Origin: Candidatus Lariskella endosymbiont of Epinotia ramella
GTDB taxonomy: Bacteria > Pseudomonadota > Alphaproteobacteria > Rickettsiales > Midichloriaceae
Direction: 5' to 3'
Assembly (NCBI RefSeq): GCF_964019805.1
Contig: NZ_OZ026472.1
Coordinates: 248,001 to 312,000, forward strand
Length of the DNA: 64,000 nt
The notes beneath the pieces are model-generated. The model did not search any database, was not told the DNA's origin, and worked only from the letters and a program-made list of their open reading frames with translations. This document shows, piece after piece, positions 4,631 to 48,837 of this stretch. The stretch's first letter is position 1, and the number at the start of each line of letters is the position of its first letter. A program made the position numbers and the translations under genes.

Positions 4631-5386
4631 TCATATTTCGCCAAATTCAGCAGCAAGCTCAGCAGGTGTTAACACAGATTTTGTAACTTTATCATACTCT
4701 TTAACAAAAGAGCCATTTTTCAGGAGCAATAACCTATCTCCATATTTGATAGCATGTGCCATGTTGTGTGTAATCATGATACAAGTAAGCTTTTGCTTGC
4801 GCACAATCTGATTTGTTAATTCTATGGTATATTCACTACTTGCAGGATCTAAGGCTGCTGTGATTTCATCTAATAGCAGTATTTTAGAATCTTGTAGCAT
4901 AGCCATGACAATACTAAGCACCTGCCTTTGACCACCAGATAAGTTGCTTACCAGATCATCAATCCTATTCTCCAGCCCCATGTTTACTGTGCTTAATTTT
5001 TCTCTAAATAACCGAGTACGATTTTTGTTAGTAAACAGCTGTAACCCCCTTTTTTGTCCTCTTTTTAGTGCAAAAGCCATATTTTCCAAGATAGTCATAT
5101 TTTCCATTGTACCAGATTTTGGGTCCTGCATCACTTTGGATACTAGATTGGCTCTATATATCTGCGATGTATTGGTAATGTCTTGTTTTAGAATGAATAC
5201 TTTACCAGAATCTGGTTTTATAAACCCAGAGATTATATTAAACATTGTAGATTTACCTGCTCCATTGCCACCTATCACAACAACGAATTCTCCTTCTTTA
5301 ACATCTAAATTTAAGTAATTTAAGACTTTTCGCTCTAGCTTAGTATTCTTACCCAAAACAATATTAATATTCTCAAGTCTTAGCAT
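4631..5386 (-). CDS. ABC transporter ATP-binding protein (TrpZ-like)
   Basis: The ATPase of a three-part uptake system, 251 residues. Walker A G-G-N-G-A-G-K-S is at about 37-44, the signature L-S-G-G-Q at about 149-153 and Walker B L-L-L-D-E at about 169-173, followed by the H-loop I-T-H-N. It is closest in style to the ATPases paired with TrpX-type binding proteins and branched-chain-type permeases. It is the last gene of the operon and its start overlaps the permease gene by 7 bp. Together with the permease and the binding protein it should import a small ligand, probably an aromatic amino acid given the regulator in the same operon. The transport substrate is an inference. Confidence 0.88.
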   Translation of the reverse strand: MLRLENINIVLGKNTKLERKVLNYLNLDVKEGEFVVVIGGNGAGKSTMFNIISGFIKPDSGKVFILKQDITNTSQIYRANLVSKVMQDPKSGTMENMTILENMAFALKRGQKRGLQLFTNKNRTRLFREKLSTVNMGLENRIDDLVSNLSGGQRQVLSIVMAMLQDSKILLLDEITAALDPASSEYTIELTNQIVRKQKLTCIMITHNMAHAIKYGDRLLLLKNGSFVKEYDKVTKSVLTPAELAAEFGEI

Positions 5387-6225
5387 GCACGCCTCTTTGA
5401 TAAATACACTATTGCTATCACCATAAGTCCTGTGAGCAAGTTTAAATCAGCAGTTGCAAGACCTAAAGAATCACTATAAAGCGCAAAACTGATGAATAAT
5501 CTATATATGATAGATCCAATTAAACAGCTGATAGTTTGTACTAAAATAGACTGACTTGACATGACTCTTTCGCCAATCATTACTGAAGCAAGTCCTACAA
5601 TCACAGTGCCTATTCCGCTTCCAACATCAGCAAAGCCTTGATGTTGACTGAACAATGCACCGCCTAGAGCAATAATTGCATTACTGAAAACAAGTCCTAT
5701 TATGACCATAAGCTTAAAATTTACGCCGCTGTTTTGTGCTAACCTCTTGTTTTGACCTATACTGCGCAATGCCAAGCCAAAATCTGTCATGAGCAAGTAT
5801 GTGACAATAGCGCATATTGATAAGATGATAATAGTTAATGCAACTATAGGAGACTCAAAAAAGATAGTAGCGTCGTTAATAAGAGTAATATTGGGAATGC
5901 CATCCATAATACGCAGGTTAACTGAATAAAGCATAAAACTTACCAATATCCCAGAAAGTAAATTAGTGACTTGGAATTTGGTATATAATATGCTTGTAAT
6001 GCATCCTGCAACACCACCTGCAAATATGGCAGCTATCAAAGATAGCCAAGGATCAAACCCAGATTTGATCATAATACTTGAAACAGCAGCGCCTAAAACA
6101 AAGCTGCCATCACAAGTTAAATCTGGAAAATCTATAATACGAAATGTTAGGTATATTCCAATTGCAACAATTCCATAAATGATTCCGATTTCTAGGCTCA
6201 TTATAATTTCGTTTAGTGTCATCAC
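5380..6225 (-). CDS. ABC transporter permease (TrpY-like)
   Basis: A 281-residue, very hydrophobic protein with about eight membrane segments. The N-terminal stretch T-F-R-I-I-D-F-P-D-L-T-C-D-G-S-F is the hallmark of permeases that pair with PF04392 (TrpX-type) binding proteins. It forms the channel in the inner membrane and couples to the ATPase encoded just downstream. The first ATG (6225) and the second (6222) are both possible; the second gives a 1-bp shorter overlap with the preceding gene. The gene is intact. Confidence 0.88.
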   Translation of the reverse strand: MMTLNEIIMSLEIGIIYGIVAIGIYLTFRIIDFPDLTCDGSFVLGAAVSSIMIKSGFDPWLSLIAAIFAGGVAGCITSILYTKFQVTNLLSGILVSFMLYSVNLRIMDGIPNITLINDATIFFESPIVALTIIILSICAIVTYLLMTDFGLALRSIGQNKRLAQNSGVNFKLMVIIGLVFSNAIIALGGALFSQHQGFADVGSGIGTVIVGLASVMIGERVMSSQSILVQTISCLIGSIIYRLFISFALYSDSLGLATADLNLLTGLMVIAIVYLSKRRAC

Positions 6226-7193
6226 TTACTCTTTGTAATGATTTTTGTAGCGATCGCTTTAATGTCATTTGGTAATTGCATTCCAATTTTCTGCGCAGTA
6301 TCTTCATTGAGAAAAAGTTCTGTGCTAGCTGGAAACTCTACAGGTATCATACCTACATCTTCGCCTTTCAGGCTTCGAGCAATAATTTGTGCTGTTTGTA
6401 TGCCTATTTCATATTGATTAGGTCCAAGTGCTGCTAAAGCGCCTAGCTTTACAGCATCAGTATCGCTTACATAAACAGGTATCTTCACTTTAGTTGCAAC
6501 ATTAATGATTGTCTGCAAAGCAGAAAGTGCTGTGCTATCATTACTGATGAATATAGCATCGACGTTCGCAGCTAGCTTAGTTGATGCTTGAGCTACCTCT
6601 GAAGTTTTATTTGCAGCTTGCAATACCAAGGTTATGCCAAGTTTATGGCACAATTCTTCTAGTTTTTCTATCAAACTTAAAGAGTTAATTTCGCTTGGAT
6701 TATATAAAAATCCTAGTCGCTTTAAATTTGGTTGGATTTGTTGAAATAACGTGATTTGAGGCTTGAGTTCAACAAAATTTGATACGCCTGAAGTATTATT
6801 TCCTGGCTCTGATAAACTTTGTACAAGCTCAGCTTTTATGGGATCTGTGACTGAGCTAAACACTAGCTTTATTTTATTTTCTTTTGCGTATTTGGCAAAG
6901 CTTTGAGCGGAAATAGTAGCAACACCGACTACAACATCTGCTCCTTTACCAACAAATTTTGCTGCGATTTGAGAAGCTAAAGCGGGGTTGGCTTGTGCGG
7001 ATTCAACTCGCAGATCTAGATTGACACCACGCTCATACCCATTTTGTTCCAAACCATCAATAATTCCTTCTATAGTCATGTTTAGTGCCGGGTGTTCAAC
7101 TAATTTGTTAATGAATACCTTTTTCATATTTTCAGCAGCAAATGTATTCATTGCAAAAAATATAGATATTGCAAATGTCAGTACTTTCTTCAT
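6222..7193 (-). CDS. ABC transporter substrate-binding protein (TrpX-like, PF04392 type)
   Basis: A 323-residue periplasmic binding protein. A signal peptide (residues 1 to about 19, ending A-F-A) lacks a lipobox cysteine, so the protein should be soluble in the periplasm. The rest is a two-lobe type-I fold: L-R-V-E-S-A-Q-A-N and V-V-G-V-A-T in lobe 1, and F-I-S-N-D-S-T-A-L and V-Y-V-S-D-T-D-A-V in lobe 2, all typical of the PF04392 family. Known members bind tryptophan or tyrosine. It overlaps the regulator gene upstream by 4 bp (ATGA), so regulator and transporter are made from the same mRNA. Confidence 0.88.
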   Translation of the reverse strand: MKKVLTFAISIFFAMNTFAAENMKKVFINKLVEHPALNMTIEGIIDGLEQNGYERGVNLDLRVESAQANPALASQIAAKFVGKGADVVVGVATISAQSFAKYAKENKIKLVFSSVTDPIKAELVQSLSEPGNNTSGVSNFVELKPQITLFQQIQPNLKRLGFLYNPSEINSLSLIEKLEELCHKLGITLVLQAANKTSEVAQASTKLAANVDAIFISNDSTALSALQTIINVATKVKIPVYVSDTDAVKLGALAALGPNQYEIGIQTAQIIARSLKGEDVGMIPVEFPASTELFLNEDTAQKIGMQLPNDIKAIATKIITKSK

Positions 7194-7492
7194 GCTGAGG
7201 TTTTTTTATTTTTTAATTTTTGTAGTAAGGCAGAATAGCCTTGATATTGCTCATCTTTTAAAAATCTTGCTACCCGTCCTATTGTTGTTAAACTTGCTCC
7301 TGTTTGAGCATGAATTTCGCGATATGATAAGCCATTATTCAGTGCTTTGCATATCTGCCATCGTTCGGTGAGTGCAATTAATTCAGCTGGTGTGCATAAA
7401 TCTTTTAAAAAATTATATGCCTCTCTATCTGTTTCTAGCAAAAGTAGAGCTTGGCACAATTCTTTTATATTTTTATTATGATCATTAGTCAT
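7190..7492 (-). CDS. TrpR/YerC/YecD-family transcription regulator
   Basis: A 100-residue, all-helical protein of the Trp repressor superfamily (YerC/YecD subgroup). The central region L-C-T-P-A-E-L-I-A-L-T-E-R-W-Q-I matches the family core. The helix-turn-helix is L-S-Y-R-E-I-H-A-Q-T-G-A-S-L-T-T-I-G-R-V, about residues 55-74. Length fits TrpR (about 100-108). It is the first gene of the importer operon. Two tandem palindromes that resemble trp operator half-sites lie 13-41 bp upstream of its ATG and cover the -10 box, which suggests that it represses its own operon. The co-repressor is probably an aromatic amino acid; this is inferred, not shown. Confidence 0.88.
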   Translation of the reverse strand: MTNDHNKNIKELCQALLLLETDREAYNFLKDLCTPAELIALTERWQICKALNNGLSYREIHAQTGASLTTIGRVARFLKDEQYQGYSALLQKLKNKKTSA

Positions 7493-7504
7493 GCCTTACC
7501 TTGT

Positions 7505-7533
7505 TACTAAACTAGTATGCTACTAAAGTAGTA
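7505..7533. promoter_or_regulatory. operator: four trp-like half-sites at 8-bp spacing
   Basis: TACTA (7505), TAGTA (7513), TACTA (7521) and TAGTA (7529) each start exactly 8 bp apart. This makes two identical 13-bp palindromes TACTA-N3-TAGTA. The half-sites equal those of the E. coli trp operator, but the inner spacer is 3 instead of 6 bases. They overlap the -10 hexamer and the likely transcription start of the operon, a position expected for repression. Confidence 0.7.
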
Positions 7534-7553
7534 CGGCGGGTCTAATAAGTCAA
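7525..7553 (-). promoter_or_regulatory. sigma70-type promoter of the regulator-importer operon
   Basis: On the minus strand TTGACT (7553-7548) and TACTTT (7530-7525) are separated by 17 bp. The -10 lies inside the upstream palindrome of the operator. The predicted start falls near 7518, about 25 nt before the ATG. Confidence 0.55.
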
Positions 7554-7564
7554 GAAAAATAAAT

Positions 7565-7734
7565 ACTAATACCAACTTTCCCAAATAACAGAATATAGTA
7601 GCTGTATATTTTTTAGAAAATTTAAGATGAGCTTTAAAGTAAGCTTTACTAGAAGTACAGCGGCCATGGGGGCGCTTAATTTTTCTAAAAAGACGCAGCT
7701 AAAGTATTCTGTTATTTGGGAGAGTTAGTATAAT
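7565..7734. repeat. R3 repeat (MITE-like, copy 1)
   Basis: About 170 bp bounded by an inverted repeat: CCCAAATAACAGAATA near 7580-7595 and TATTCTGTTATTTGGG at 7705-7720, each followed outward by a shared ACCAACTT/AGTTAGTA-like tail. The interior holds no gene. Related copies lie at 9409-9577 and 57700-57799. Confidence 0.7.
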
Positions 7735-8023: not shown

Positions 8024-9211
8024 CTATACATATGAGAGAATGGTATCTAGTGTATCATCCAATACATGAGCAAATAGTTCAAATTGTGATGACCAATAAT
8101 TATATGTGCTACGCGCAGCATTGTTAAAAGGTTCCATATAAGAATTAAATGGTGCGTCATATATTAAAATCACGTCTTCTTCTATTGCAGATTGGTTTTG
8201 CTCTGTATGACTGGTATGATTCATAAATTTTGCATATTCGTCGTAGGTTTTATAATATAGTCTTTTATGCTCAGCATATTCTTTATCTCTATATATATCT
8301 ATTATCCTTGGTGCTTTGCATATGTTTGCATCCTCCATATTCACTAATTTCTTTGGTGTATAAGCACTCACTCTGCTTATAGACATCATGATCGCACTGG
8401 TTAAGTATTCTTTTGGAAAATCTGCTATACTAGGCATAAAACTGAGGCCGCCAAATTTTGCAGTCAAAAGATTGAACGCTGCATCTGCAGTAGTGCTAAT
8501 GGAGCCTATATAATTCGTGGTTGTTTTTGTAATATCAATGATATTACCTGTCACATAAACAGCGGCTTTTGCTGCAAGTACTCTGCCAATCGTTACTTTG
8601 TTAATATTTGCACTCCAATTGATGGAGTCGTATATTTTAGTAAATCCGTTTTCCCACATAACATCAGCAAGGACTTTTATATAACTTTCTCCATCTTGCT
8701 GTATAGCTTTTACTTGAGGATGTACTTGTGTCATGATATCAACGAACGCTTGCCCTGTTAGGTCGCATGCTGAGTTTCTTATTGCGTGCAAATTACCCAA
8801 GCCGGATGCAAGAAGAGAGAGTTTACATACTCCTTTGATTGCATCTCCTGCAGGTCTATACCATTCGTATTTTTGTGTGCCATAATCCCAGCCACTATAG
8901 TAAGCATACGAGGCCTGAGCTACTTTGGTGAAGTCTCCAACAAAGCTACCGAAGTATGTAGAGTCACTATTGAGTTGTTCTAAGTTTATTCTTAGAGTTG
9001 AGCCAATAAACTGAATAAAGCCTTTGACAAAAAACTTAAGTGGGGCAAAACCAAATATTTCTTTTGTATTAGGAAATTCTTCTGAAATATGCTTGAAGAA
9101 CATCTCTTTAGGTTCATACCTGTAGTTCTGCGTGAATTTTCCAATTAATGGCATTGCATCGATGTAATCGTTCCACGTATTTGTTTTTGCTTTTGTATTA
9201 GTTTGTGACAT
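8024..9211 (-). CDS. hypothetical protein (395 aa)
   Basis: An intact 395-residue open frame of unknown function. It has no signal peptide and no motif I can name. The middle (about 205-255) holds small-residue and hydrophobic stretches (A-A-K-A-A-V-Y-V-T-G-N-I-I) that could be a membrane-interacting segment. The N-terminus is rich in Asn/Thr and the protein in aromatic residues (Y, F, W). It stands alone between repeat-filled spacers. Lineage-specific proteins of this kind in Rickettsiales are sometimes secreted effectors, but nothing here proves secretion. The length and clean frame make it a real gene. Confidence 0.7.
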   Translation of the reverse strand: MSQTNTKAKTNTWNDYIDAMPLIGKFTQNYRYEPKEMFFKHISEEFPNTKEIFGFAPLKFFVKGFIQFIGSTLRINLEQLNSDSTYFGSFVGDFTKVAQASYAYYSGWDYGTQKYEWYRPAGDAIKGVCKLSLLASGLGNLHAIRNSACDLTGQAFVDIMTQVHPQVKAIQQDGESYIKVLADVMWENGFTKIYDSINWSANINKVTIGRVLAAKAAVYVTGNIIDITKTTTNYIGSISTTADAAFNLLTAKFGGLSFMPSIADFPKEYLTSAIMMSISRVSAYTPKKLVNMEDANICKAPRIIDIYRDKEYAEHKRLYYKTYDEYAKFMNHTSHTEQNQSAIEEDVILIYDAPFNSYMEPFNNAARSTYNYWSSQFELFAHVLDDTLDTILSYV

Positions 9212-9971
9212 GTCTTTTGATAAATAAAATAATAAATACAGCTTAATAAAATTTGGCAGATCGACCTTTTTACCTGAAAGAATTATTTATCCTTCATTTG
9301 CAGATGATACATAAAATATAATCTCAGTATCATTTTCATCATGGAAAAAGTGATCTATCAAAAATGATTGGATAGTAACCTCTACCTGCTATATACATGA
9401 GACATAGCTTATACCGACTCTCATAAATTACAGAACACTTTAGCTTCGTCTTTTCTTTAAAATTTAAGCACGCTCTTTGCCGCTGTACTTCTAGTATAGC
9501 TCACTTAAATCTCATCTTAAATTTTTCAAAAAATACGTAGCAAATATATGATGTTATTTGGAGAGGTTGGTATTAGTAAATATCCTAACATTCATAAATA
9601 ATAGAAACTGGCAGATTGTTAGATATTATTAATAATCTGCGTCATTCTCCTTTTAGTTGAATTTGGTTAATCTATGTTTTTATATTGTCTCTTTTACTTT
9701 CGATTATGCTTGTTTGCTTTGATGTAGCAAATTTTAGGGATTCTATACTGCATATTTGGTAGTGTAAAGCAAATAAAACAATCTTAATTTATGGTTTATC
9801 AAAAATGTTTATAAATGTTTTGTTGTCAAATTATAGCTATAGTTGTGTATAAATTTTTGTTTTCTTGTATATTTTTATGTGTGATATTCGTCTTTATTTA
9901 GAAAAATAAATTTCTCAATTAGATTGATGTGCAGTTGTGTATTTATTATACTGAGAGCTAATGTGAAATAA
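9212..9971. other. spacer with an R3 repeat, no gene
   Basis: About 760 bp of AT-rich DNA between the 395-residue protein gene and the pcm remnant. Apart from the R3 repeat at 9409-9577 I see no coding frame, RNA gene or clear terminator. Confidence 0.5.
9409..9577. repeat. R3 repeat (MITE-like, copy 2)
   Basis: It has the same ends as copy 1: a degenerate TACCGACTCTCATAAATTACAGAACACTTTAGC-type left end and ATGTTATTTGGAGAGGTTGGTATTA at the right end. Internal matches with copy 1 include GCCGCTGTACTTCTAGTA and TCATCTTAAATTTT, on the strand opposite to copy 1. It is more diverged than copy 1. Confidence 0.65.
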
Positions 9972-10001: not shown

Positions 10002-10372
10002 ATGAAAGTTGCAAAAGACGCATTCTATTTGGAGCGTACAAATATGGTGAGAAACCAGCTGATTCCAAATCAAATATATGATAGTCGCATATTAGATGCT
10101 ATGGAGAGCATACCTAGACATATTTTTGTAGAAGAAAAGTGGCGTCCTGTTGCATATGTAGATGAAAATATTCCAGCTTGCGTCGGGCGCGCAAGCTTCT
10201 TTCGCCGCTTTTACTTGCAAAGATGTTGTCTTGCTGTAATTTGAAGGATAATGCGACAGTTTTAGATGTAGGATTTGGTTCAGGCTATTCGATCGCCCTG
10301 CTTGCAAAGATTGTTAAAAGTGTTACTGCAATTGAGAGTAATGAGCATATGTTATTTCTTGCTGCGGATAAT
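10002..10372 (+). pseudogene. pcm: protein-L-isoaspartate O-methyltransferase-like, broken
   Basis: The N-terminal half of a Pcm-family methyltransferase. It starts at ATG 10002 behind GGAGAG and reads R-N-Q-L-I-P-N-Q and I-P-R-H-I-F-V typical of the family. At the GCGCGC run (10187-10192) the frame is lost; removing one GC unit restores G-R-K-L-L-S-P-L-L-L-A-K-M-L and the SAM-binding loop V-L-D-V-G-F-G-S-G-Y-S. The IS5 copy at 10373 then cuts the gene, and the C-terminal third is not found on the other side, where prs sequence begins. The gene is therefore doubly inactivated. Pcm repairs isoaspartyl residues in damaged proteins. Confidence 0.85.
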
Positions 10373-10405
10373 AGACCTCTTGCATAACCATATAAATTGA
10401 TTAAA

Positions 10406-10426
10406 ATCCTTGATTTTATCAAGGAT
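10406..10426 (+). promoter_or_regulatory. hairpin covering the transposase ribosome-binding site
   Basis: ATCCTTGAT (10406-10414) pairs perfectly with ATCAAGGAT (10418-10426) around a TTT loop. The 3' arm holds AAGGA, the ribosome-binding site for the ATG at 10430. The same structure is present in every IS5 copy of the window. Such hairpins limit transposase translation from transcripts that enter from outside the element. Confidence 0.65.
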
Positions 10427-10429
10427 AAC

Positions 10430-11250
10430 ATGAAGTTTGAAAACATCAAAGATGAATACGCAGAAGAGTTTCGCAGGCTTACTGGCATTAAACGAGGAAC
10501 GTTTGAAGTTATACTAAGTATATTAAAAGAAGCTGAAGCTATTTTAAAGTCTCAAGGTGGAAAACCCAATAAATTGGCTTTAGAAGATCGATTACTCATG
10601 ACGCTTGAGTACTTGCGTGAATACAGGACATATTTTCATATTTCCCGCAGTTATGGAATAAGTGAAAGTGCCTGTTATCGTAATATACGTTGGATTGAAG
10701 ATACTCTAATTAAAGATAAACGATTTTCACTACCTGGACGTAAAGCATTACTAAAAAGCGATTCTGAATACGAACTTGTGTTAATTGATGCTACTGAAAC
10801 ACCGATAGAACGACCTAAAAAAAACAGAAGCACTTTTATTCGGGAAAAAAGAGGCGACATACTCTAAAAACTCAGCTTATTGTGGATAAAAGGAAAAAAG
10901 AAATCATTTGCACTAATTTTTCTAATGGCAAGCGTCATGATTTCAGGTTATTTAAAGAATCCGGAGTTCACATCCACCCTGAGATTAAAGTTCTTACAGA
11001 TACTGGTTATCAAGGCATTGATAAGTTGCATTATAATTCAGAGTTACCAAAGAAAAAGACAAAAAAGCGACCACTAAGCAGGAAAGATAAAAAGAAAAAT
11101 CGTCAATTGTCTAGTGAACGTGTTTTAAATGAAAACGTCATAGGCATGATCAAACGATTTAAAATTATCGCTGATCGTTATAGGAACAGAAGAAAACGAT
11201 TCGGTTTAAGGTTTAATTTACTTGCTGGTATCTATAACTTTGAGCTTTAA
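10430..11250 (+). CDS. IS5-family transposase, two frames joined by -1 frameshift (copy 2)
   Basis: A DDE transposase. Frame 1 runs from ATG 10430 (an in-frame TTG lies at 10397) to the stop at 10867. It holds the HTH-like region and the first catalytic aspartate in L-I-D-A-T-E. Frame 2, open up to 11250, has the second aspartate in L-T-D-T-G-Y-Q-G and the glutamate in the S-E-R-V-L-N-E-N-V-I-G region. A run of eight A (10817-10824) followed by C gives A_AAA_AAC; a -1 shift there continues as K-Q-K-H-F-Y-S-G-K-K into frame 2 and yields about 273 residues, normal for the family. I chose the ATG because AAGGA precedes it at the right distance. Two-frame IS5 elements are typical of the IS427 group. 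Confidence 0.9.
10817..10825 (+). other. -1 ribosomal frameshift site in the IS5 transposase
   Basis: Eight A followed by C, read in frame 1 as AAA-AAA-AAC. A -1 slip puts the ribosome into the frame that begins CAG-AAG-CAC and keeps the conserved H-F-Y-S-G motif. The site is the same in every copy. Confidence 0.7.
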
Positions 11251-11270
11251 ATAGGTTATGCAAGAGGTCT

Positions 11271-11653
11271 AATATATGATCTATTCCTGCTGCAGCAATT
11301 ATTTTTCCAAGCACTCTCATAGCAACCGCTTCTTGTGTAACTAGTTGTTTATCTTGTCTGCTATAACCAAAATAGGGAATTAGGGCGATTACATTCTTTA
11401 TATTGTTAGATTGTCTAACAGCATCCGCTATCAAAAGTAGCTCCATTACGTTTTCTGATGCCGAACTATTTGTGGACTGTACTATAATAACTGTTTCGCA
11501 ATTCAGTTGCTCGGAAATTCTTACTTTCAATTCTCCATCTGCAAACTTCGTTAATTCTGCTTCTATATATTTAAATCCTAAGTGGTCGCTCAGTGTATAT
11601 GCAAAAGCCTTACTATTGCTTCCAGCTACTACTACTGTTTCTTGTTGTATCAT
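11271..11653 (-). pseudogene. prs: ribose-phosphate pyrophosphokinase, 3' part missing
   Basis: About 127 N-terminal residues of PRPP synthase, of roughly 310 in the family. It starts at ATG 11653 and shows F-A-D-G-E-L-K-V-R-I, the region V-I-I-V-Q-S-T-N, L-L-I-A-D-A and the ATP-side motif Y-F-G-Y-S-R-Q-D-K. The frame runs out at A-A-G-I-D-H-I when the IS5 copy begins. Beyond the IS lies pcm sequence, not the rest of prs. The flexible loop and the catalytic C-terminal half are absent, so this fragment cannot make PRPP. An intact copy elsewhere or import of nucleotides would be needed. Confidence 0.9.
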
Positions 11654-12066: not shown

Positions 12067-12511
12067 GAGTATAGATAACTTTTTATCTATAAAATGAATG
12101 CGCTTGTTTCTGCTTCTAATATTAAAACATACTAAAACTCATAGTGCTCAATTGCATATTGTTTTAGTATATCGTGATGCGACATCTTCAGTCCAATAAT
12201 TTCTCCCATTGTATCAAAGTGGATAAATGAGTGATAGTTTGCACATGTCATTTTAAATGCATCGCTTATATAAGCACCTAAAGTATGCTCTGAGTTGAAT
12301 ATCTTGCATATCATTTCTATAGTAGTTTTTGCAGAAATTTGCTTTCCTCCTATTGCTCTGCACTGATCTAATGTAGACTTTGCAAGTGCTTTGGGTGCAT
12401 AATTTAGAGGAATGTAATCTCCTTTTCCTGTAATATCACATAGACTGTAATCTGCTCTAAAAAGAGCAATTTCTATTTTCAGCTTTTCTACTGCATCTTT
12501 CTTAAAAAAAT

Positions 12512-13409
12512 AGACCTCTTGCATAACCTATTTAAAGCTCAAAGTTATAGATACCAGCAAGTAAATTAAACCTTAAACCGAATCGTTTTCTTCTGTTCCT
12601 ATAACGATCAGCGATAATTTTAAATCGTTTGATCATGCCTATGACGTTTTCATTTAAAACACGTTCACTAGACAATTGACGATTTTTCTTTTTATCTTTC
12701 CTGCTTAGTGGTCGCTTTTTTGTCTTTTTCTTTGGTAACTCTGAATTATAATGCAACTTATCAATGCCTTGATAACCAGTATCTGTAAGAACTTTAATCT
12801 CAGGGTGGATGTGAACTCCGGATTCTTTAAATAACCTGAAATCATGACGCTTGCCATTAGAAAAATTAGTGCAAATGATTTCTTTTTTCCTTTTATCCAC
12901 AATAAGCTGAGTTTTTAGAGTATGTCGCCTCTTTTTTCCCGAATAAAAGTGCTTCTGTTTTTTTTAGGTCGTTCTATCGGTGTTTCAGTAGCATCAATTA
13001 ACACAAGTTCGTATTCAGAATCGCTTTTTAGTAATGCTTTACGTCCAGGTAGTGAAAATCGTTTATCTTTAATTAGAGTATCTTCAATCCAACGTATATT
13101 ACGATAACAGGCACTTTCACTTATTCCATAACTGCGGGAAATATGAAAATATGTCCTGTATTCACGCAAGTACTCAAGCGTCATGAGTAATCGATCTTCT
13201 AAAGCCAATTTATTGGGTTTTCCACCTTGAGACTTTAAAATAGCTTCAGCTTCTTTTAATATACTTAGTATAACTTCAAACGTTCCTCGTTTAATGCCAG
13301 TAAGCCTGCGAAACTCTTCTGCGTATTCATCTTTGATGTTTTCAAACTTCATGTTATCCTTGATAAAATCAAGGATTTTAATCAATTTATATGGTTATGC
13401 AAGAGGTCT
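12512..13409 (-). mobile_element. IS5-family element, copy 3 (complete)
   Basis: 898 bp with both inverted repeats, flanked by AAT on each side (equivalently TA inside the repeat tip). It sits in the 3' third of the hypothetical gene 12132-14998. Confidence 0.95.
12532..13352 (-). CDS. IS5-family transposase (copy 3)
   Basis: Same two-frame transposase as copy 2 with identical translation. ATG at 13352, frame-1 stop at 12915, frame 2 ending at 12532, slippery A run at 12958-12965. Confidence 0.9.
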
Positions 13410-13876
13410 AATGCATGTACAAGTCCATATCATATATTTTTCGTTTAAAATTCAGCATTTTGCAATTCAAAGCATCTTGTCCACGCAATAAGTACGCTAT
13501 AATACTTGTATACACATATTTTCTTCCATCCTCCGTTGTTTGAAATATTGTATCAGCGAAAACAATATCTTTTCTTGCATCTGCGCTGATGAAGTGAGTC
13601 TTTTGATGATATGTTTCATATCCTGTTGTATAAGCCATATGAGCTCTTGGACTTGAGCTCGTGTTGTATACCTCATACATAGATTTCGGTGAATTTACAT
13701 CTATTATGGCTTCATATATTTGCGTAAAAACAGTTTCACCAACTCGTTGATCTACAATTATGTCTTTCTCAAATATCCCAATAAATCGCAAGTTACTTAC
13801 ATCGAATGAGTGATTTGCAGCTTCTTCTAATATATCGTGATATGTAGAATGGTAATTTATGTTGGCTGGATTTAAT

Positions 13877-14774
13877 AGACCTCTTGCATAACCTATTTAA
13901 AGCTCAAAGTTATAGATACCAGCAAGTAAATTAAACCTTAAACCGAATCGTTTTCTTCTGTTCCTATAACGATCAGCGATAATTTTAAATCGTTTGATCA
14001 TGCCTATGACGTTTTCATTTAAAACACGTTCACTAGACAATTGACGATTTTTCTTTTTATCTTTCCTGCTTAGTGGTCGCTTTTTTGTCTTTTTCTTTGG
14101 TAACTCTGAATTATAATGCAACTTATCAATGCCTTGATAACCAGTATCTGTAAGAACTTTAATCTCAGGGTGGATGTGAACTCCGGATTCTTTAAATAAC
14201 CTGAAATCATGACGCTTGCCATTAGAAAAATTAGTGCAAATGATTTCTTTTTTCCTTTTATCCACAATAAGCTGAGTTTTTAGAGTATGTCGCCTCTTTT
14301 TTCCCGAATAAAAGTGCTTCTGTTTTTTTTAGGTCGTTCTATCGGTGTTTCAGTAGCATCAATTAACACAAGTTCGTATTCAGAATCGCTTTTTAGTAAT
14401 GCTTTACGTCCAGGTAGTGAAAATCGTTTATCTTTAATTAGAGTATCTTCAATCCAACGTATATTACGATAACAGGCACTTTCACTTATTCCATAACTGC
14501 GGGAAATATGAAAATATGTCCTGTATTCACGCAAGTACTCAAGCGTCATGAGTAATCGATCTTCTAAAGCCAATTTATTGGGTTTTCCACCTTGAGACTT
14601 TAAAATAGCTTCAGCTTCTTTTAATATACTTAGTATAACTTCAAACGTTCCTCGTTTAATGCCAGTAAGCCTGCGAAACTCTTCTGCGTATTCATCTTTG
14701 ATGTTTTCAAACTTCATGTTATCCTTGATAAAATCAAGGATTTTAATCAATTTATATGGTTATGCAAGAGGTCT
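13877..14774 (-). mobile_element. IS5-family element, copy 4 (complete)
   Basis: 898 bp, intact inverted repeats, AAT on both sides. It is the second insertion in the same hypothetical gene, 467 bp from copy 3 and in the same orientation. Confidence 0.95.
13897..14717 (-). CDS. IS5-family transposase (copy 4)
   Basis: Identical translation to copy 2. ATG at 14717, frame-1 stop at 14280, frame 2 ending at 13897, joined by the same A8 slip site. Confidence 0.9.
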
Positions 14775-15235
14775 AATATATTAATGCTCCATCGTTTTAT
14801 AAGCGTTAGCATCTCAGAATGTCTTGGAACATCCGATGCGCTCGTGAGTTTTAAGCTGCCAATATCACATGCCGTACAATTATTGTACCCTATAATTCTT
14901 CTGTATTTTAGTGCTGCATGTGCAATGTTATGGTTTGGAAAATCATCGTGCCAACTGTTAGATGGTAATAGCTTTACATCACAAATTACTTTGAACATAT
15001 GAATAATGGATACAAATAATTAGATTGCACCCCTTGCATAACTCAATTTCTGAGGATGCATGGTTTGAGTCGCATCAATGCTAAAGGGTAGGTTATGTAT
15101 ATTAGAATACACACCTCCTTTGCGCGTCTCAAGCCCCTACCACTTGCTCCTTAGAAATAACTTCTGCAAGCGCTCTATTGTTATTACTGCAAATAAAAAA
15201 CTGACTATGCTGCGCTGACAAAGTACCCAGATAAT

Positions 15236-30085: not shown

Positions 30086-30108
30086 TCTAATTACCTATAT
30101 TCTTTAAT

Positions 30109-31006
30109 AGACCTCTTGCATAACCTATTTAAAGCTCAAAGTTATAGATACCAGCAAGTAAATTAAACCTTAAACCGAATCGTTTTCTTCTGTTCCTATA
30201 ACGATCAGCGATAATTTTAAATCGTTTGATCATGCCTATGACGTTTTCATTTAAAACACGTTCACTAGACAATTGACGATTTTTCTTTTTATCTTTCCTG
30301 CTTAGTGGTCGCTTTTTTGTCTTTTTCTTTGGTAACTCTGAATTATAATGCAACTTATCAATGCCTTGATAACCAGTATCTGTAAGAACTTTAATCTCAG
30401 GGTGGATGTGAACTCCGGATTCTTTAAATAACCTGAAATCATGACGCTTGCCATTAGAAAAATTAGTGCAAATGATTTCTTTTTTCCTTTTATCCACAAT
30501 AAGCTGAGTTTTTAGAGTATGTCGCCTCTTTTTTCCCGAATAAAAGTGCTTCTGTTTTTTTTAGGTCGTTCTATCGGTGTTTCAGTAGCATCAATTAACA
30601 CAAGTTCGTATTCAGAATCGCTTTTTAGTAATGCTTTACGTCCAGGTAGTGAAAATCGTTTATCTTTAATTAGAGTATCTTCAATCCAACGTATATTACG
30701 ATAACAGGCACTTTCACTTATTCCATAACTGCGGGAAATATGAAAATATGTCCTGTATTCACGCAAGTACTCAAGCGTCATGAGTAATCGATCTTCTAAA
30801 GCCAATTTATTGGGTTTTCCACCTTGAGACTTTAAAATAGCTTCAGCTTCTTTTAATATACTTAGTATAACTTCAAACGTTCCTCGTTTAATGCCAGTAA
30901 GCCTGCGAAACTCTTCTGCGTATTCATCTTTGATGTTTTCAAACTTCATGTTATCCTTGATAAAATCAAGGATTTTAATCAATTTATATGGTTATGCAAG
31001 AGGTCT
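30109..31006 (-). mobile_element. IS5-family element, copy 5 (complete)
   Basis: 898 bp with both inverted repeats, inserted in the upstream end of the IS256 element. The flanks are AAT on the left and ATT on the right, so the three-base duplication seen at other copies is not matched here; only TA is shared. Confidence 0.95.
30129..30949 (-). CDS. IS5-family transposase (copy 5)
   Basis: Identical translation to copy 2. ATG at 30949, frame-1 stop at 30512, frame 2 ending at 30129, same A8 slip site. Confidence 0.9.
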
Positions 31007-31054
31007 ATTAATTCCAAATATAGGCTCTACTATAATTTACACAATCTTTGATAA

Positions 31055-34956: not shown

Positions 34957-35361
34957 CTACACTGAATTTTCTAGCACATAAACTGAAAGCAATATTTCTC
35001 CGTGCCAAATTGATGTATTTAGTTGTTTTATAGATGAAGTTGCAATTTTAGGGTTGCTAAATTCATATTTATTGCTAAAAAAGCTGAGGCTTTGCAAGAT
35101 GTATTGAAGCTTTGTCATTATGCTAGCGCAATCTAGATTGTTTTTGTGATTTGAGAATACTTCAAGTGCTACTTTGCATTGTGTGAATGTTTGATCTGCA
35201 TGTTGAACAAGAAGCGAGCGAAAGTCTGATAATCTGATAAATGGGTATTTTGCATTCTCTGGAACATAAGAGTATATCTCAGGTAGTAGTTCTTCATTAT
35301 CAGTTCTGCTGAAGCGAATATTTTTTATTATAGTTCGTTGTATTATTTCAAAGTACTCCAT
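34957..35361 (-). CDS. DUF3168-like phage tail completion protein
   Basis: A 134-residue protein starting at ATG 35361, at the edge of IS5 copy 6; a longer frame to 35478 only adds IS sequence. The order P-E-I-Y-S-Y-V-P-E-N-A-K-Y-P-F-I-R-L and later L-L-V-Q-H-A-D-Q-T-F-T-Q-C-K-V-A-L-E-V-F-S fits DUF3168 proteins (HK97 gp10 / GTA g8 type), which finish the tail-head joint of siphovirus-like particles. The gene before it in the operon, now separated by the IS, is a head-closure protein, the usual neighbour. The IS removed its upstream ribosome-binding context, so expression may be lost. Confidence 0.65.
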   Translation of the reverse strand: MEYFEIIQRTIIKNIRFSRTDNEELLPEIYSYVPENAKYPFIRLSDFRSLLVQHADQTFTQCKVALEVFSNHKNNLDCASIMTKLQYILQSLSFFSNKYEFSNPKIATSSIKQLNTSIWHGEILLSVYVLENSV

Positions 35362-35362
35362 T

Positions 35363-36260
35363 AGACCTCTTGCATAACCATATAAATTGATTAAAATCCT
35401 TGATTTTATCAAGGATAACATGAAGTTTGAAAACATCAAAGATGAATACGCAGAAGAGTTTCGCAGGCTTACTGGCATTAAACGAGGAACGTTTGAAGTT
35501 ATACTAAGTATATTAAAAGAAGCTGAAGCTATTTTAAAGTCTCAAGGTGGAAAACCCAATAAATTGGCTTTAGAAGATCGATTACTCATGACGCTTGAGT
35601 ACTTGCGTGAATACAGGACATATTTTCATATTTCCCGCAGTTATGGAATAAGTGAAAGTGCCTGTTATCGTAATATACGTTGGATTGAAGATACTCTAAT
35701 TAAAGATAAACGATTTTCACTACCTGGACGTAAAGCATTACTAAAAAGCGATTCTGAATACGAACTTGTGTTAATTGATGCTACTGAAACACCGATAGAA
35801 CGACCTAAAAAAAACAGAAGCACTTTTATTCGGGAAAAAAGAGGCGACATACTCTAAAAACTCAGCTTATTGTGGATAAAAGGAAAAAAGAAATCATTTG
35901 CACTAATTTTTCTAATGGCAAGCGTCATGATTTCAGGTTATTTAAAGAATCCGGAGTTCACATCCACCCTGAGATTAAAGTTCTTACAGATACTGGTTAT
36001 CAAGGCATTGATAAGTTGCATTATAATTCAGAGTTACCAAAGAAAAAGACAAAAAAGCGACCACTAAGCAGGAAAGATAAAAAGAAAAATCGTCAATTGT
36101 CTAGTGAACGTGTTTTAAATGAAAACGTCATAGGCATGATCAAACGATTTAAAATTATCGCTGATCGTTATAGGAACAGAAGAAAACGATTCGGTTTAAG
36201 GTTTAATTTACTTGCTGGTATCTATAACTTTGAGCTTTAAATAGGTTATGCAAGAGGTCT
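35363..36260 (+). mobile_element. IS5-family element, copy 6 (complete)
   Basis: 898 bp with ATT on both sides. It sits exactly where the stop of the head-closure gene met the start of the DUF3168 gene, so both frames survive but the operon is cut. It is oriented against the two phage genes. Confidence 0.95.
35420..36240 (+). CDS. IS5-family transposase (copy 6)
   Basis: Identical translation to copy 2. ATG at 35420, frame-1 stop at 35857, frame 2 ending at 36240, slip site at 35807-35814. Confidence 0.9.
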
Positions 36261-36261
36261 A

Positions 36262-36591
36262 TTATAATACCTCTTCTACAAACAATGTGAGAAACTTTTT
36301 ATTTTCTTGATAATCAATATAGTAAAGAACATGGAAGATTCTCTGTTGATAAATTGCCATAATACGGAGATTTGGAAGTTTTATATATCTTGTTAGTATT
36401 TGATGAGAATATTTTTGTTCAACTCTTCCAAATTGATATGTTTCTTTAAAACCAATTGGTGTAATATTTGCCCATATCTTATAACGAAATGCGCAGTTTG
36501 GTTTAAATGACTCATACATATCGTCATATTGCTCATGATAAGATTCTAGTATGATACGCTTATTCAGTTTACAAAATTTTGGTTGTAGCAT
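36262..36591 (-). CDS. phage head closure / head-tail joining protein
   Basis: A 109-residue protein of the SPP1 gp16 / HK97 gp9 type (PF05521). Family features are the early basic stretch L-N-K-R-I-I-L-E, the W-A-N-I-T-P strand, the T-R-Y-I-K-L-P-N-L-R-I and the strand F-H-V-L-Y-Y-I-D-Y-Q-E-N-K-K-F-L-T-L. Such proteins seal the portal channel after DNA packaging. It follows the DUF2793 gene by 22 bp. Its stop overlapped or nearly touched the next gene before the IS5 insertion. Confidence 0.7.
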   Translation of the reverse strand: MLQPKFCKLNKRIILESYHEQYDDMYESFKPNCAFRYKIWANITPIGFKETYQFGRVEQKYSHQILTRYIKLPNLRIMAIYQQRIFHVLYYIDYQENKKFLTLFVEEVL

Positions 36592-44673: not shown

Positions 44674-45863
44674 TGTAGAAGTCAATATTTGATCTTACAG
44701 ACAGTTATAAATTTTATATCTGCTTGTCAGTTAAGTTTTGACTGTCAGATATGTAACTGAGATACAAGATTTCATTATTCTTTTCCACAGCAAACTTTTT
44801 ACTATCCAAAAAAGTTTGCATAGGAGTTTTTCCATAACAATATTTACCAGAATGAGGTCTTGCATTGTTGAAATGTTCTAACCAAATATCAAGATCTAAT
44901 TGCAAATCATCTAATGCTGTATAAATCTTTTTACGCATAGCTGTATCAAAGAATTCTTGTTTCATAGTTTTATTAAAACGTTCACACATACCATTAGTCT
45001 GAGGTGAATATGCTTTAGTTGTAGTATGCTCTATACCTTCTATACTGAGAAATAACTCAAAAGCATGGTGCTCTATATTCCCTTTATATTCTCCTCCACG
45101 ATCTGTAAGAATACGAAGCATTGGTATCCCTTGACTCTCATACCATGGTAACACTCGATCATTTAGCATATCAGCTGCAGTAATTGCAGTTCTTTCAGTA
45201 TACAGTTTAGCATCAGCAAATCTACTGTAGCTATCAATAAACACCTGAGCATAAACCTTTCCTATCCCTTTGAAATTTCCTACATAATATGTATCTTGGC
45301 AACCTAGATAACCTGGATGTTGTGTCTCAATTTCTCCATGTGCTTCTTTTTCATTACTACGTTTCTCTAGTACTTGCAGCTGTGCTTCAGTCAAAATAAT
45401 ACCATCTTGGGCCATCTTAGCTTCTAATGCTTTCAATCTTTTATTGATATTATTTAAATCATTACGTAACCAAATTGACCTGACTCCACCAGGTGAGACA
45501 AGTATACCACTCTTCTTCAGCTCATTTGATACTCTAAGTTGTCCATATGCTGGGTACTCTATCGCCATATCAATTACTGCTTTTTCTACATTAGGATCTA
45601 CTCTATTAGCCATTATTGGCTTCTTACGACTTATTTCGTATAGCGCTTCTTCTCCTCCTGTTTCATATAGTTCTTTAAATCTGTAATAGCTATCTCTACT
45701 ATAACCCATTGCCTTACATGCAGATGATATACTACCAAGGCTTTTGGCCAATTCAAGTAAACCAATTTTAGGTTTGATTATTTTTTGATTTAAGTTCATT
45801 GCTTATCTCCATTTAATAACTAATTTAGTTTACCAAATGTAAGATAAAATATCGACTAATACA
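44674..45863 (-). mobile_element. IS481-family element, copy 2, nested in IS5 copy 7
   Basis: 1190 bp with the same 26-bp imperfect inverted repeats as copy 1. The 7-bp duplication TTTAAAG is seen at 44667-44673 and 45864-45870, in the IS5 sequence just past its left inverted repeat. Confidence 0.95.
44714..45799 (-). CDS. IS481-family transposase (copy 2)
   Basis: Intact, 361 residues, same motifs as copy 1 ([23 protein letters not shown]). Substitutions against copy 1 include Q-K to K-K near residue 96, D-K to E-R near 208 and F-N-N-E-R to F-N-N-A-R near the end. The last changes a position usually conserved in integrase cores, so its activity is less certain. Confidence 0.92.
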
Positions 45864-45864
45864 T

Positions 45865-46685
45865 TTAAAGCTCAAAGTTATAGATACCAGCAAGTAAATT
45901 AAACCTTAAACCGAATCGTTTTCTTCTGTTCCTATAACGATCAGCGATAATTTTAAATCGTTTGATCATGCCTATGACGTTTTCATTTAAAACACGTTCA
46001 CTAGACAATTGACGATTTTTCTTTTTATCTTTCCTGCTTAGTGGTCGCTTTTTTGTCTTTTTCTTTGGTAACTCTGAATTATAATGCAACTTATCAATGC
46101 CTTGATAACCAGTATCTGTAAGAACTTTAATCTCAGGGTGGATGTGAACTCCGGATTCTTTAAATAACCTGAAATCATGACGCTTGCCATTAGAAAAATT
46201 AGTGCAAATGATTTCTTTTTTCCTTTTATCCACAATAAGCTGAGTTTTTAGAGTATGTCGCCTCTTTTTTCCCGAATAAAAGTGCTTCTGTTTTTTTTAG
46301 GTCGTTCTATCGGTGTTTCAGTAGCATCAATTAACACAAGTTCGTATTCAGAATCGCTTTTTAGTAATGCTTTACGTCCAGGTAGTGAAAATCGTTTATC
46401 TTTAATTAGAGTATCTTCAATCCAACGTATATTACGATAACAGGCACTTTCACTTATTCCATAACTGCGGGAAATATGAAAATATGTCCTGTATTCACGC
46501 AAGTACTCAAGCGTCATGAGTAATCGATCTTCTAAAGCCAATTTATTGGGTTTTCCACCTTGAGACTTTAAAATAGCTTCAGCTTCTTTTAATATACTTA
46601 GTATAACTTCAAACGTTCCTCGTTTAATGCCAGTAAGCCTGCGAAACTCTTCTGCGTATTCATCTTTGATGTTTTCAAACTTCAT
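45865..46685 (-). CDS. IS5-family transposase (copy 7)
   Basis: Identical translation to copy 2: ATG at 46685, frame-1 stop at 46248, frame 2 ending at 45865. The guest IS481 lies just beyond its stop, so the coding part is whole although the element end is displaced. Confidence 0.9.
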
Positions 46686-47244
46686 GTTATCCTTGATAAA
46701 ATCAAGGATTTTAATCAATTTATATGGTTATGCAAGAGGTCTAATATTTTCGGAAAATTCACCGGCAAGAAAACTACTTTCAAATGAATTGTTATCGGCA
46801 AATATAGAACCAGAAGATAAAATAAAAGGAAATTTTGTTATAATCAGAGATAGTAATGTTATTTCTCGTATGGCTGGAAAAGAGTTTTTGATAAATGAAG
46901 ATGGAGCACTATACTTAAAATGCAATTTGATCACTCATGAACAATATAATGTAACATCTATCAAAACTATGCTTGGCTGCTTTATCCACGACAGCTATTC
47001 CTGGATGCACATGAAAAAAGGAGATGAGTTCTTAGTGATTCAACTCACATCACTTGAAATGAACAAAGATAACATTACCATAACCAGCCCAACTAAAGTA
47101 CAAATTGCTGAGAATTTCGAATTACTTAAGAATTTAATTCAGAAAGCGGAAGAAACTATTAGAAACGTAAGCGACATAAAAAACATGGATTATGGTTTAC
47201 TTCCATCATTTTCAAAAGAAACTAATCATCATTCACAAATCAAT

Positions 47245-48142
47245 AGACCTCTTGCATAACCTATTTAAAGCTCAAAGTTATAGATACCAGCAAGTAAATT
47301 AAACCTTAAACCGAATCGTTTTCTTCTGTTCCTATAACGATCAGCGATAATTTTAAATCGTTTGATCATGCCTATGACGTTTTCATTTAAAACACGTTCA
47401 CTAGACAATTGACGATTTTTCTTTTTATCTTTCCTGCTTAGTGGTCGCTTTTTTGTCTTTTTCTTTGGTAACTCTGAATTATAATGCAACTTATCAATGC
47501 CTTGATAACCAGTATCTGTAAGAACTTTAATCTCAGGGTGGATGTGAACTCCGGATTCTTTAAATAACCTGAAATCATGACGCTTGCCATTAGAAAAATT
47601 AGTGCAAATGATTTCTTTTTTCCTTTTATCCACAATAAGCTGAGTTTTTAGAGTATGTCGCCTCTTTTTTCCCGAATAAAAGTGCTTCTGTTTTTTTTAG
47701 GTCGTTCTATCGGTGTTTCAGTAGCATCAATTAACACAAGTTCGTATTCAGAATCGCTTTTTAGTAATGCTTTACGTCCAGGTAGTGAAAATCGTTTATC
47801 TTTAATTAGAGTATCTTCAATCCAACGTATATTACGATAACAGGCACTTTCACTTATTCCATAACTGCGGGAAATATGAAAATATGTCCTGTATTCACGC
47901 AAGTACTCAAGCGTCATGAGTAATCGATCTTCTAAAGCCAATTTATTGGGTTTTCCACCTTGAGACTTTAAAATAGCTTCAGCTTCTTTTAATATACTTA
48001 GTATAACTTCAAACGTTCCTCGTTTAATGCCAGTAAGCCTGCGAAACTCTTCTGCGTATTCATCTTTGATGTTTTCAAACTTCATGTTATCCTTGATAAA
48101 ATCAAGGATTTTAATCAATTTATATGGTTATGCAAGAGGTCT
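47245..48142 (-). mobile_element. IS5-family element, copy 8 (complete)
   Basis: 898 bp, AAT on both sides (47242-47244 and 48143-48145). It is the second IS5 insertion in the FliK-like gene. Confidence 0.95.
47265..48085 (-). CDS. IS5-family transposase (copy 8)
   Basis: Identical translation to copy 2: ATG at 48085, frame-1 stop at 47648, frame 2 ending at 47265, same slip site. Confidence 0.9.
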
Positions 48143-48837
48143 AATGTTGTTTTTGAAATGATGGCACTACTTGCTGGAATAAAGCGAACCTCTAAAGATG
48201 AATCCACAGAAAACACACCATCAACACAAAAAACAAATATATTAAGTTTGCTGAGAGAGGTTTATACACAAACTGCATCTCTAGAGTATCAGCTTATAAT
48301 GTTGCCTTTCTTTTATGACGGGAAAATTGAGTTCTGCAAGATTTATATCAAGAATGAAGAAGAAAAAAAAGATGACGATAATTCTCAAAATCCAGATAAA
48401 ACACTAAATTTTAAATTAGAAATAGATTTGCGTAATCTTGGACCAATTGTCATGGATGGCAAATTCACTAGTAAGTCTGGCCTACGAAAGTTAGAGTGTG
48501 AAATCCAAACAGAACATGGATTCCCATATTATGTTAAAGAGGAAATACATAGCGCTTTTTCCAACTGTTGTGAGGCATTAACACTGCAAGGAAAAATCTT
48601 GTTTTCACATATTCAACATCAAGAATTTGATGCTCAGTATGAACATGTAACCGATGATTCAGAAGATGCATATGAACATAGAAAGTATGATGTAGTAATG
48701 TAACTTGCATAGCATTCATAGCTCATGTAAAATATCAAAGCTATATTTGCAAATTTCCCTTATCATTAACAAACTCCTAATTCCCAACTAATACATTAGT
48801 TTAATTGCAATATACATGCAACAAATGGCACAAATAG

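Follow-up and report, generated by a model that had tools for sequence, protein, structure and literature searches.

The 64-kb stretch of DNA analyzed here (the window), part of a source replicon represented by a single 1.59-Mb contig, carries a four-gene operon that is most probably a histidine importer operon, hisR-hisXYZ*, under histidine-corepressed autoregulation through a tandem operator. Once intracellular histidine is bound, HisR dimers would occupy a 20-bp operator at 7516-7535, covering the -10 element. Further HisR dimers would bind in tandem, at 8-bp offsets toward the start codon, and this tandem binding would shut off the importer together with the repressor's own gene. When histidine runs short, HisR would leave the operator and the importer would be made. 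Repression is what we infer as the direction of control. This kind of system is already known, HisR having been described with an importer (PMC9413887), and the window operon extends it. What is proposed is a concrete circuit for sensing histidine in a bacterium that depends on its host and has lost the ability to make this amino acid.

Profile searches identified on the minus strand a regulator gene, followed by the genes of a PF04392 binding protein, a permease and an ATPase (Table 1). Matches to PF01371/TIGR02531, PF04392, PF02653 and PF00005 uphold the gene families that an earlier note on this DNA had named, a TrpR relative and a PF04392-type importer. The closest named relative of the regulator is a Holospora undulata protein, 75% identical, and the order of the four genes is identical there. 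A search of the 1.59-Mb contig found a single intact copy of the regulator gene. The source bacterium is intracellular, Holospora-related and unable to make histidine. HisG and HisD were not found in its genome, which is 99% complete, and histidine import is therefore likely essential, although other substrates are still compatible with this setting. TrpA is likewise missing from the genome, so that auxotrophy does not point to histidine alone. An Rfam search of the window returned no riboswitch and no other Rfam element.

Table 1. Predicted features of the importer operon and its control region, and insertion sequence copies, in window coordinates.
Feature	Position	Strand	Basis
hisR, first operon gene; 100-aa repressor of the YerC/YecD type (TrpR family)	7190..7492	-	PF01371 E 7e-23; TIGR02531 66 bits
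hisX-type substrate-binding protein (PF04392), Asp244 + Gln260	6222..7193	-	PF04392 E 3e-76; selectivity columns
hisY-type permease (BPD_transp_2)	5380..6225	-	PF02653 E 3e-25; synteny in relatives
hisZ*-type ATPase	4631..5386	-	PF00005 E 3e-29; synteny in relatives
-35 TTGACT, starts 18 bp before operator	7548..7553	-
-10 TACTTT, within main operator	7525..7530	-
Main HisR operator CGTACTACTTTAGTAGCATA, 6-bp inner spacer, on -10	7516..7535	-	best PWM match, 17.5 bits
Second overlapping HisR register, +8 bp, 9.0 bits	7508..7527	-	PWM
Third overlapping HisR register, +16 bp, 5.4 bits	7500..7519	-	PWM
TACTA/TAGTA/TACTA/TAGTA chain, four half-sites at 8-bp steps	7505..7533	.
Insertion sequence copies, about 900 bp	1-692, 10370-11276, 12511-13413, 13876-14775, 30102-31013, 35359-36267, 45863-46749, 47244-48146

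The four half-sites upstream of hisR start at 7505, 7513, 7521 and 7529, exactly as first read, and the minus-strand promoter assigned to them (TTGACT-17 bp-TACTTT) is present as stated. No chain of four half-sites at 8-bp steps turned up in 4 Mb of sequence generated by a Markov model from the dinucleotide composition of the window; the chain is real and not a product of chance. The TACTA-N3-TAGTA pair on its own (TACTANNNTAGTA) occurs in the window at 7505 and 7521 only. In the 1.59-Mb genome it has four places, these two included, against seven for a reversed control pattern, and a lone pair is therefore unremarkable. The two remaining genomic places have poor motif scores.

To define the operator, a palindromic 20-bp motif was learned unsupervised from the upstream regions of 25 regulator-PF04392 importer operons, with the window excluded. 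The resulting motif is TGTaCTAncATgnTAGtACA; a separate motif from regulators that are not beside a PF04392 importer, and are mostly beside histidine biosynthesis genes, has the same architecture (TGTnTTAgCatGcTAAnACA). The main operator is the top match of the matrix in the whole window (P about 5e-7 per position; 0.03 expected in 64 kb) and ends 23 nt upstream of the start codon. It has the form of the proteobacterial-type 20-bp HisR palindrome TGTAnTA-N6, with a second half reading TAGCATA, as in Holospora. The sole exact match of GTACTANNNNNNTAGYA in the genome is this site, and a search for further genomic targets with one mismatch to GTACTANNNNNNTAGYA gave matches no more frequent than control. 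In 14 of 22 cases, the window among them, TTGAC precedes the operator by 17 or 18 bp, and the operator thus regularly covers the -10. Comparison of orthologous operons, which the earlier note had suggested, found the upstream site conserved. This conservation supports the proposal that a YerC/YecD-type TrpR relative autoregulates its own PF04392 importer operon through TrpR-like half-sites on the -10.

Tandem dimers of TrpR are spaced 8 bp apart. Upstream of the window gene, the second and third HisR registers follow the first at this step with far lower scores (9.0 and 5.4 vs 17.5 bits), and a fourth register at +24 scores 1.2 bits. With the main site kept in place, shuffling of the 3' flank yielded an equally good +8 register in 0.8% of cases (P 0.008). 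Among 73 HisR operators, 53 show one or more additional registers with a positive score at step 8, a count that takes in some related records and overlapping bases, and none has registers at steps 6, 7, 9 or 10; the regular spacing remarked on earlier is meaningful. With four registers, the window operator has the longest run among the 73.

The spacing might also be read more sparingly: only 7516-7535 would be used, and the 8-bp echoes would be remnants of a duplicated operator or of promoter sequence. Scores such as those of the +8 and +16 registers are indeed common across the window. Against this reading, which we regard as unlikely, stands a flank-only test that handles both relatedness and overlap, in which the bases outside the 20-mer were scored at every offset and similar flanks were removed. 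Among offsets 3-24, offset 8 came out strongest on either side of the site and in each context group, with z-values of 7.9 and 5.8 for 20 importer-linked sites and of 8.0 and 9.3 for 43 others; these values assume independent letters and sequences and are better taken as ranks than as probabilities. The signal recurred in these non-redundant sets, and neighbouring steps were without it. The 8-bp step is general among HisR operators in many other bacteria, and the flank pattern suggests cooperative tandem occupancy by HisR dimers. It also accords with the binding of E. coli TrpR to synthetic operators as tandem dimers (PMC8745587). On TrpR tandem spacing, nothing useful was found in the literature beyond PMC8745587, and PMC9413887 mentions neither tandem sites in operators nor Holospora, Rickettsia or endosymbionts.

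The regulator passes the YerC/YecD model (TIGR02531, 66 bits, cut-off 42.2) and fails the TrpR model (TIGR01321, 32.2 bits, cut-off 67.25); its PDB relatives are 3FRW, 3G1C and 3KOR. The YerC family, represented by B. subtilis YerC, corresponds to the histidine repressor HisR, whose 20-bp operators have been predicted in nearly 500 genomes (PMC9413887); the earlier statement that YerC/YecD proteins have few assigned operators does not agree with this figure. Histidine-dependent DNA binding in vitro has been reported for one member only, HisR of Ruminococcus gnavus (PMC9413887). The free-tryptophan site of TrpR is created by Gly85 (PMC8745587). At the corresponding column, the window regulator has Val, as do 65/65 aligned HisRs from both gene contexts. 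Four residues, Thr34, Arg44, Thr70 and Arg73, are invariant in the 65 HisRs of both contexts. In the alignment they occupy the columns of TrpR Thr44, Arg54, Thr81 and Arg84. By every test applied to its sequence, the window regulator is not a tryptophan sensor. A tryptophan-type regulator with its importer, tried as a candidate, fits neither the model scores nor the specificity residues.

The gene context of HisR was surveyed in 94 fetched records, some of them redundant, of which 30 place the regulator beside a PF04392 ABC importer, 42 beside histidine biosynthesis genes and two beside a polar-amino-acid importer. Regulators of the importer and biosynthesis contexts interleave in the tree, with nine label changes, and do not form separate clades, which favours one shared ligand. 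A hisR-hisXYZ* operon has been named in Wohlfahrtiimonas chitiniclastica (PMC9413887); it is collinear with the window operon, with identities of 53, 55 and 61%. The operator of the window operon is common to his biosynthesis operons, and the arrangement is that of the published hisR-hisXYZ*, of which the window operon appears to be the counterpart. Histidine would be the ligand of the regulator.

The survey also brought up two further arrangements. In records L039 (5294-6723) and L045 (5296-6739), HisR precedes an ABC importer of the polar-amino-acid type (PF00497/PF00528), presumed to be a third kind of histidine target of HisR; a good HisR operator precedes the importer operon in L039. Three same-family genomes (L009/L017, L013/L016, L015/L018) carry two TrpR-type domains within a single open frame, 203-241 aa long, which may encode HisR dimers in one chain. 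RmuC is among the neighbours of these frames, and no his genes or PF04392 importer occur in the fetched flanks.

In PF04392 binding proteins, two residues set the side-chain preference: Ala/Tyr in the Phe binder, Glu/Tyr in the Tyr binder and Ala/Gln in the Trp binder (PMC6816091). These selectivity columns were confirmed by a 16-residue spacing in all three solved binders, the PDB sequences entering the comparison with their aligned parts only. The window binding protein, with PDB relatives 3LKV, 6HNI and 3LFT, has Asp244 and Gln260 at these columns, a combination different from that of the Phe, Tyr and Trp binders. Asp and Gln were found in 27/27 HisR-linked binding proteins, W. chitiniclastica included, and Asp246, beside Asp244, is conserved in 26 of the 27. 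An acid and an amide would be plausible partners of an imidazole, and we infer histidine as the importer substrate. Among curated importer models TrpX (NF041285) comes closest, at 251 bits under a cut-off of 390.

The ligand expected from the resemblance to TrpR is thereby corrected. In the earlier note, one aromatic amino acid (tryptophan, tyrosine or phenylalanine) was both the signal sensed by the regulator and the cargo of the importer; this is probably wrong, and we give it little credence. Several observations do speak for it: each of the three PF04392 relatives with a solved structure binds an aromatic amino acid, no NCBIfam model comes nearer than TrpX, Gln260 is the residue of the Trp binder, TrpA is missing, and tyrosine genes are predicted targets of some HisR2 paralogs elsewhere (PMC9413887). 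However, the TrpX and TrpR models both stay under their cut-offs, and every HisR has Val at the Gly85 column. Position 244 is Asp throughout the linked proteins, where the Phe and Trp binders have Ala and the Tyr binder Glu, and the 42 related regulators beside histidine biosynthesis genes share the same operator.

It is very improbable that the true site consists of two independent 13-bp palindromes, TACTA-N3-TAGTA, with a shortened spacer and one dimer on each: although there are two exact copies 16 bp apart, and the exact N3 pair occurs in 5/25 orthologous upstream regions (N6 in 6/25, most other gaps 0), the unsupervised motif is a 20-bp N6 palindrome found in most orthologs and often near-perfect, half-site spacing is fixed in a TrpR-type dimer, and N6 registers overlapping at 8-bp steps explain the enrichment. 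The N3 pairs exist because HisR registers overlap at exactly +8 and +16 bp. The 3-bp inner spacer of the earlier note gives way to the ordinary 6-bp spacer in the conserved dimer site, 7516-7535. The associated picture of two dimers on one face of the DNA fails as well, as centres 16 bp apart are separated by about 1.5 turns of B-DNA.

Compared with known systems, the histidine operon proposed here resembles E. coli TrpR and its trp operators in fold family, in the TACTA-N6-TAGTA core, in 8-bp tandem dimers, which are predicted for the window, and in several DNA-contact residues. In contrast to TrpR, the window regulator has Val at the Gly85 column, fails the TrpR model and is predicted to use another corepressor, in a genome without trpA. 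Streptococcal TrpXYZ and the PF04392 binding proteins CD0873, VC_1101 and SP1069 share the binding-protein family and the gene trio, and their conserved binding of the amino and carboxyl groups is expected in the window protein too. The selectivity pair sets it apart (Asp/Gln, not the Ala/Gln of the Trp, Glu/Tyr of the Tyr or Ala/Tyr of the Phe binder), and control would lie with a repressor in the window operon, whereas S. suis trpX has a T-box. The likeness to hisR-hisXYZ* of W. chitiniclastica (PMC9413887) extends to the regulator family, the gene order and the 20-bp operator just upstream of hisR, with an importer 53-61% identical to that of the window. The window operator differs in its degenerate second half (TAGCATA) and in its two or three further 8-bp registers.

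More broadly, we lean, with some reserve, towards the view that in Proteobacteria and some other phyla the HisR operator is no single palindrome and consists of an array of dimer sites that overlap in steps of 8 bp, in the tandem mode of TrpR, so that array length could tune the sharpness of histidine repression, and that the Asp/Gln pair sets histidine specificity in PF04392 importers. The 8-bp grammar of the 53 operators suggests that the cooperative tandem binding of E. coli TrpR is common to HisR. With the Asp/Gln pair, histidine specificity could be tested simply from the sequence of PF04392 proteins, which are usually annotated as tryptophan/tyrosine or sugar-type. As far as PMC9413887, PMC8745587 and PMC6816091 go, the tandem grammar and the Asp/Gln pair are both undescribed.

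Elsewhere in the genome, a decayed second hisR-hisX pair lies at about 955.5-957.6 kb of the contig (L132/L135). Its regulator remnant is 33% identical over residues 52-94, and its binding protein, 57% identical, is disrupted by a frameshift and by an inserted IS. Upstream lies a site with a weak likeness to the operator (7.8 bits), and no permease or ATPase was found beside the pair. Two PF04392 paralogs, L130 and L131, considered as HisR targets, have no convincing operator nearby. The first of these (contig 1014044-1014775) is cut short by an insertion sequence and has no HisR alongside; read by eye, it also has Asp/Gln at the selectivity positions, an occurrence apart from HisR that counts against the histidine reading.

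Within the window, a 395-aa open frame at 8024-9211 has zero Pfam/NCBIfam matches. Just upstream of the operon promoter, at 7569-7731, lies an inverted-repeat element with arms of about 58 bp that are 83% alike. A second copy, 82% identical, is located near 9409-9578, and the element resembles a mobile element of the small, non-autonomous kind. The window further contains many near-identical copies (>99%) of an insertion sequence with two frames and a length of about 900 bp, which also disrupts two PF04392 genes at other places in the genome and is the element that cuts L130.
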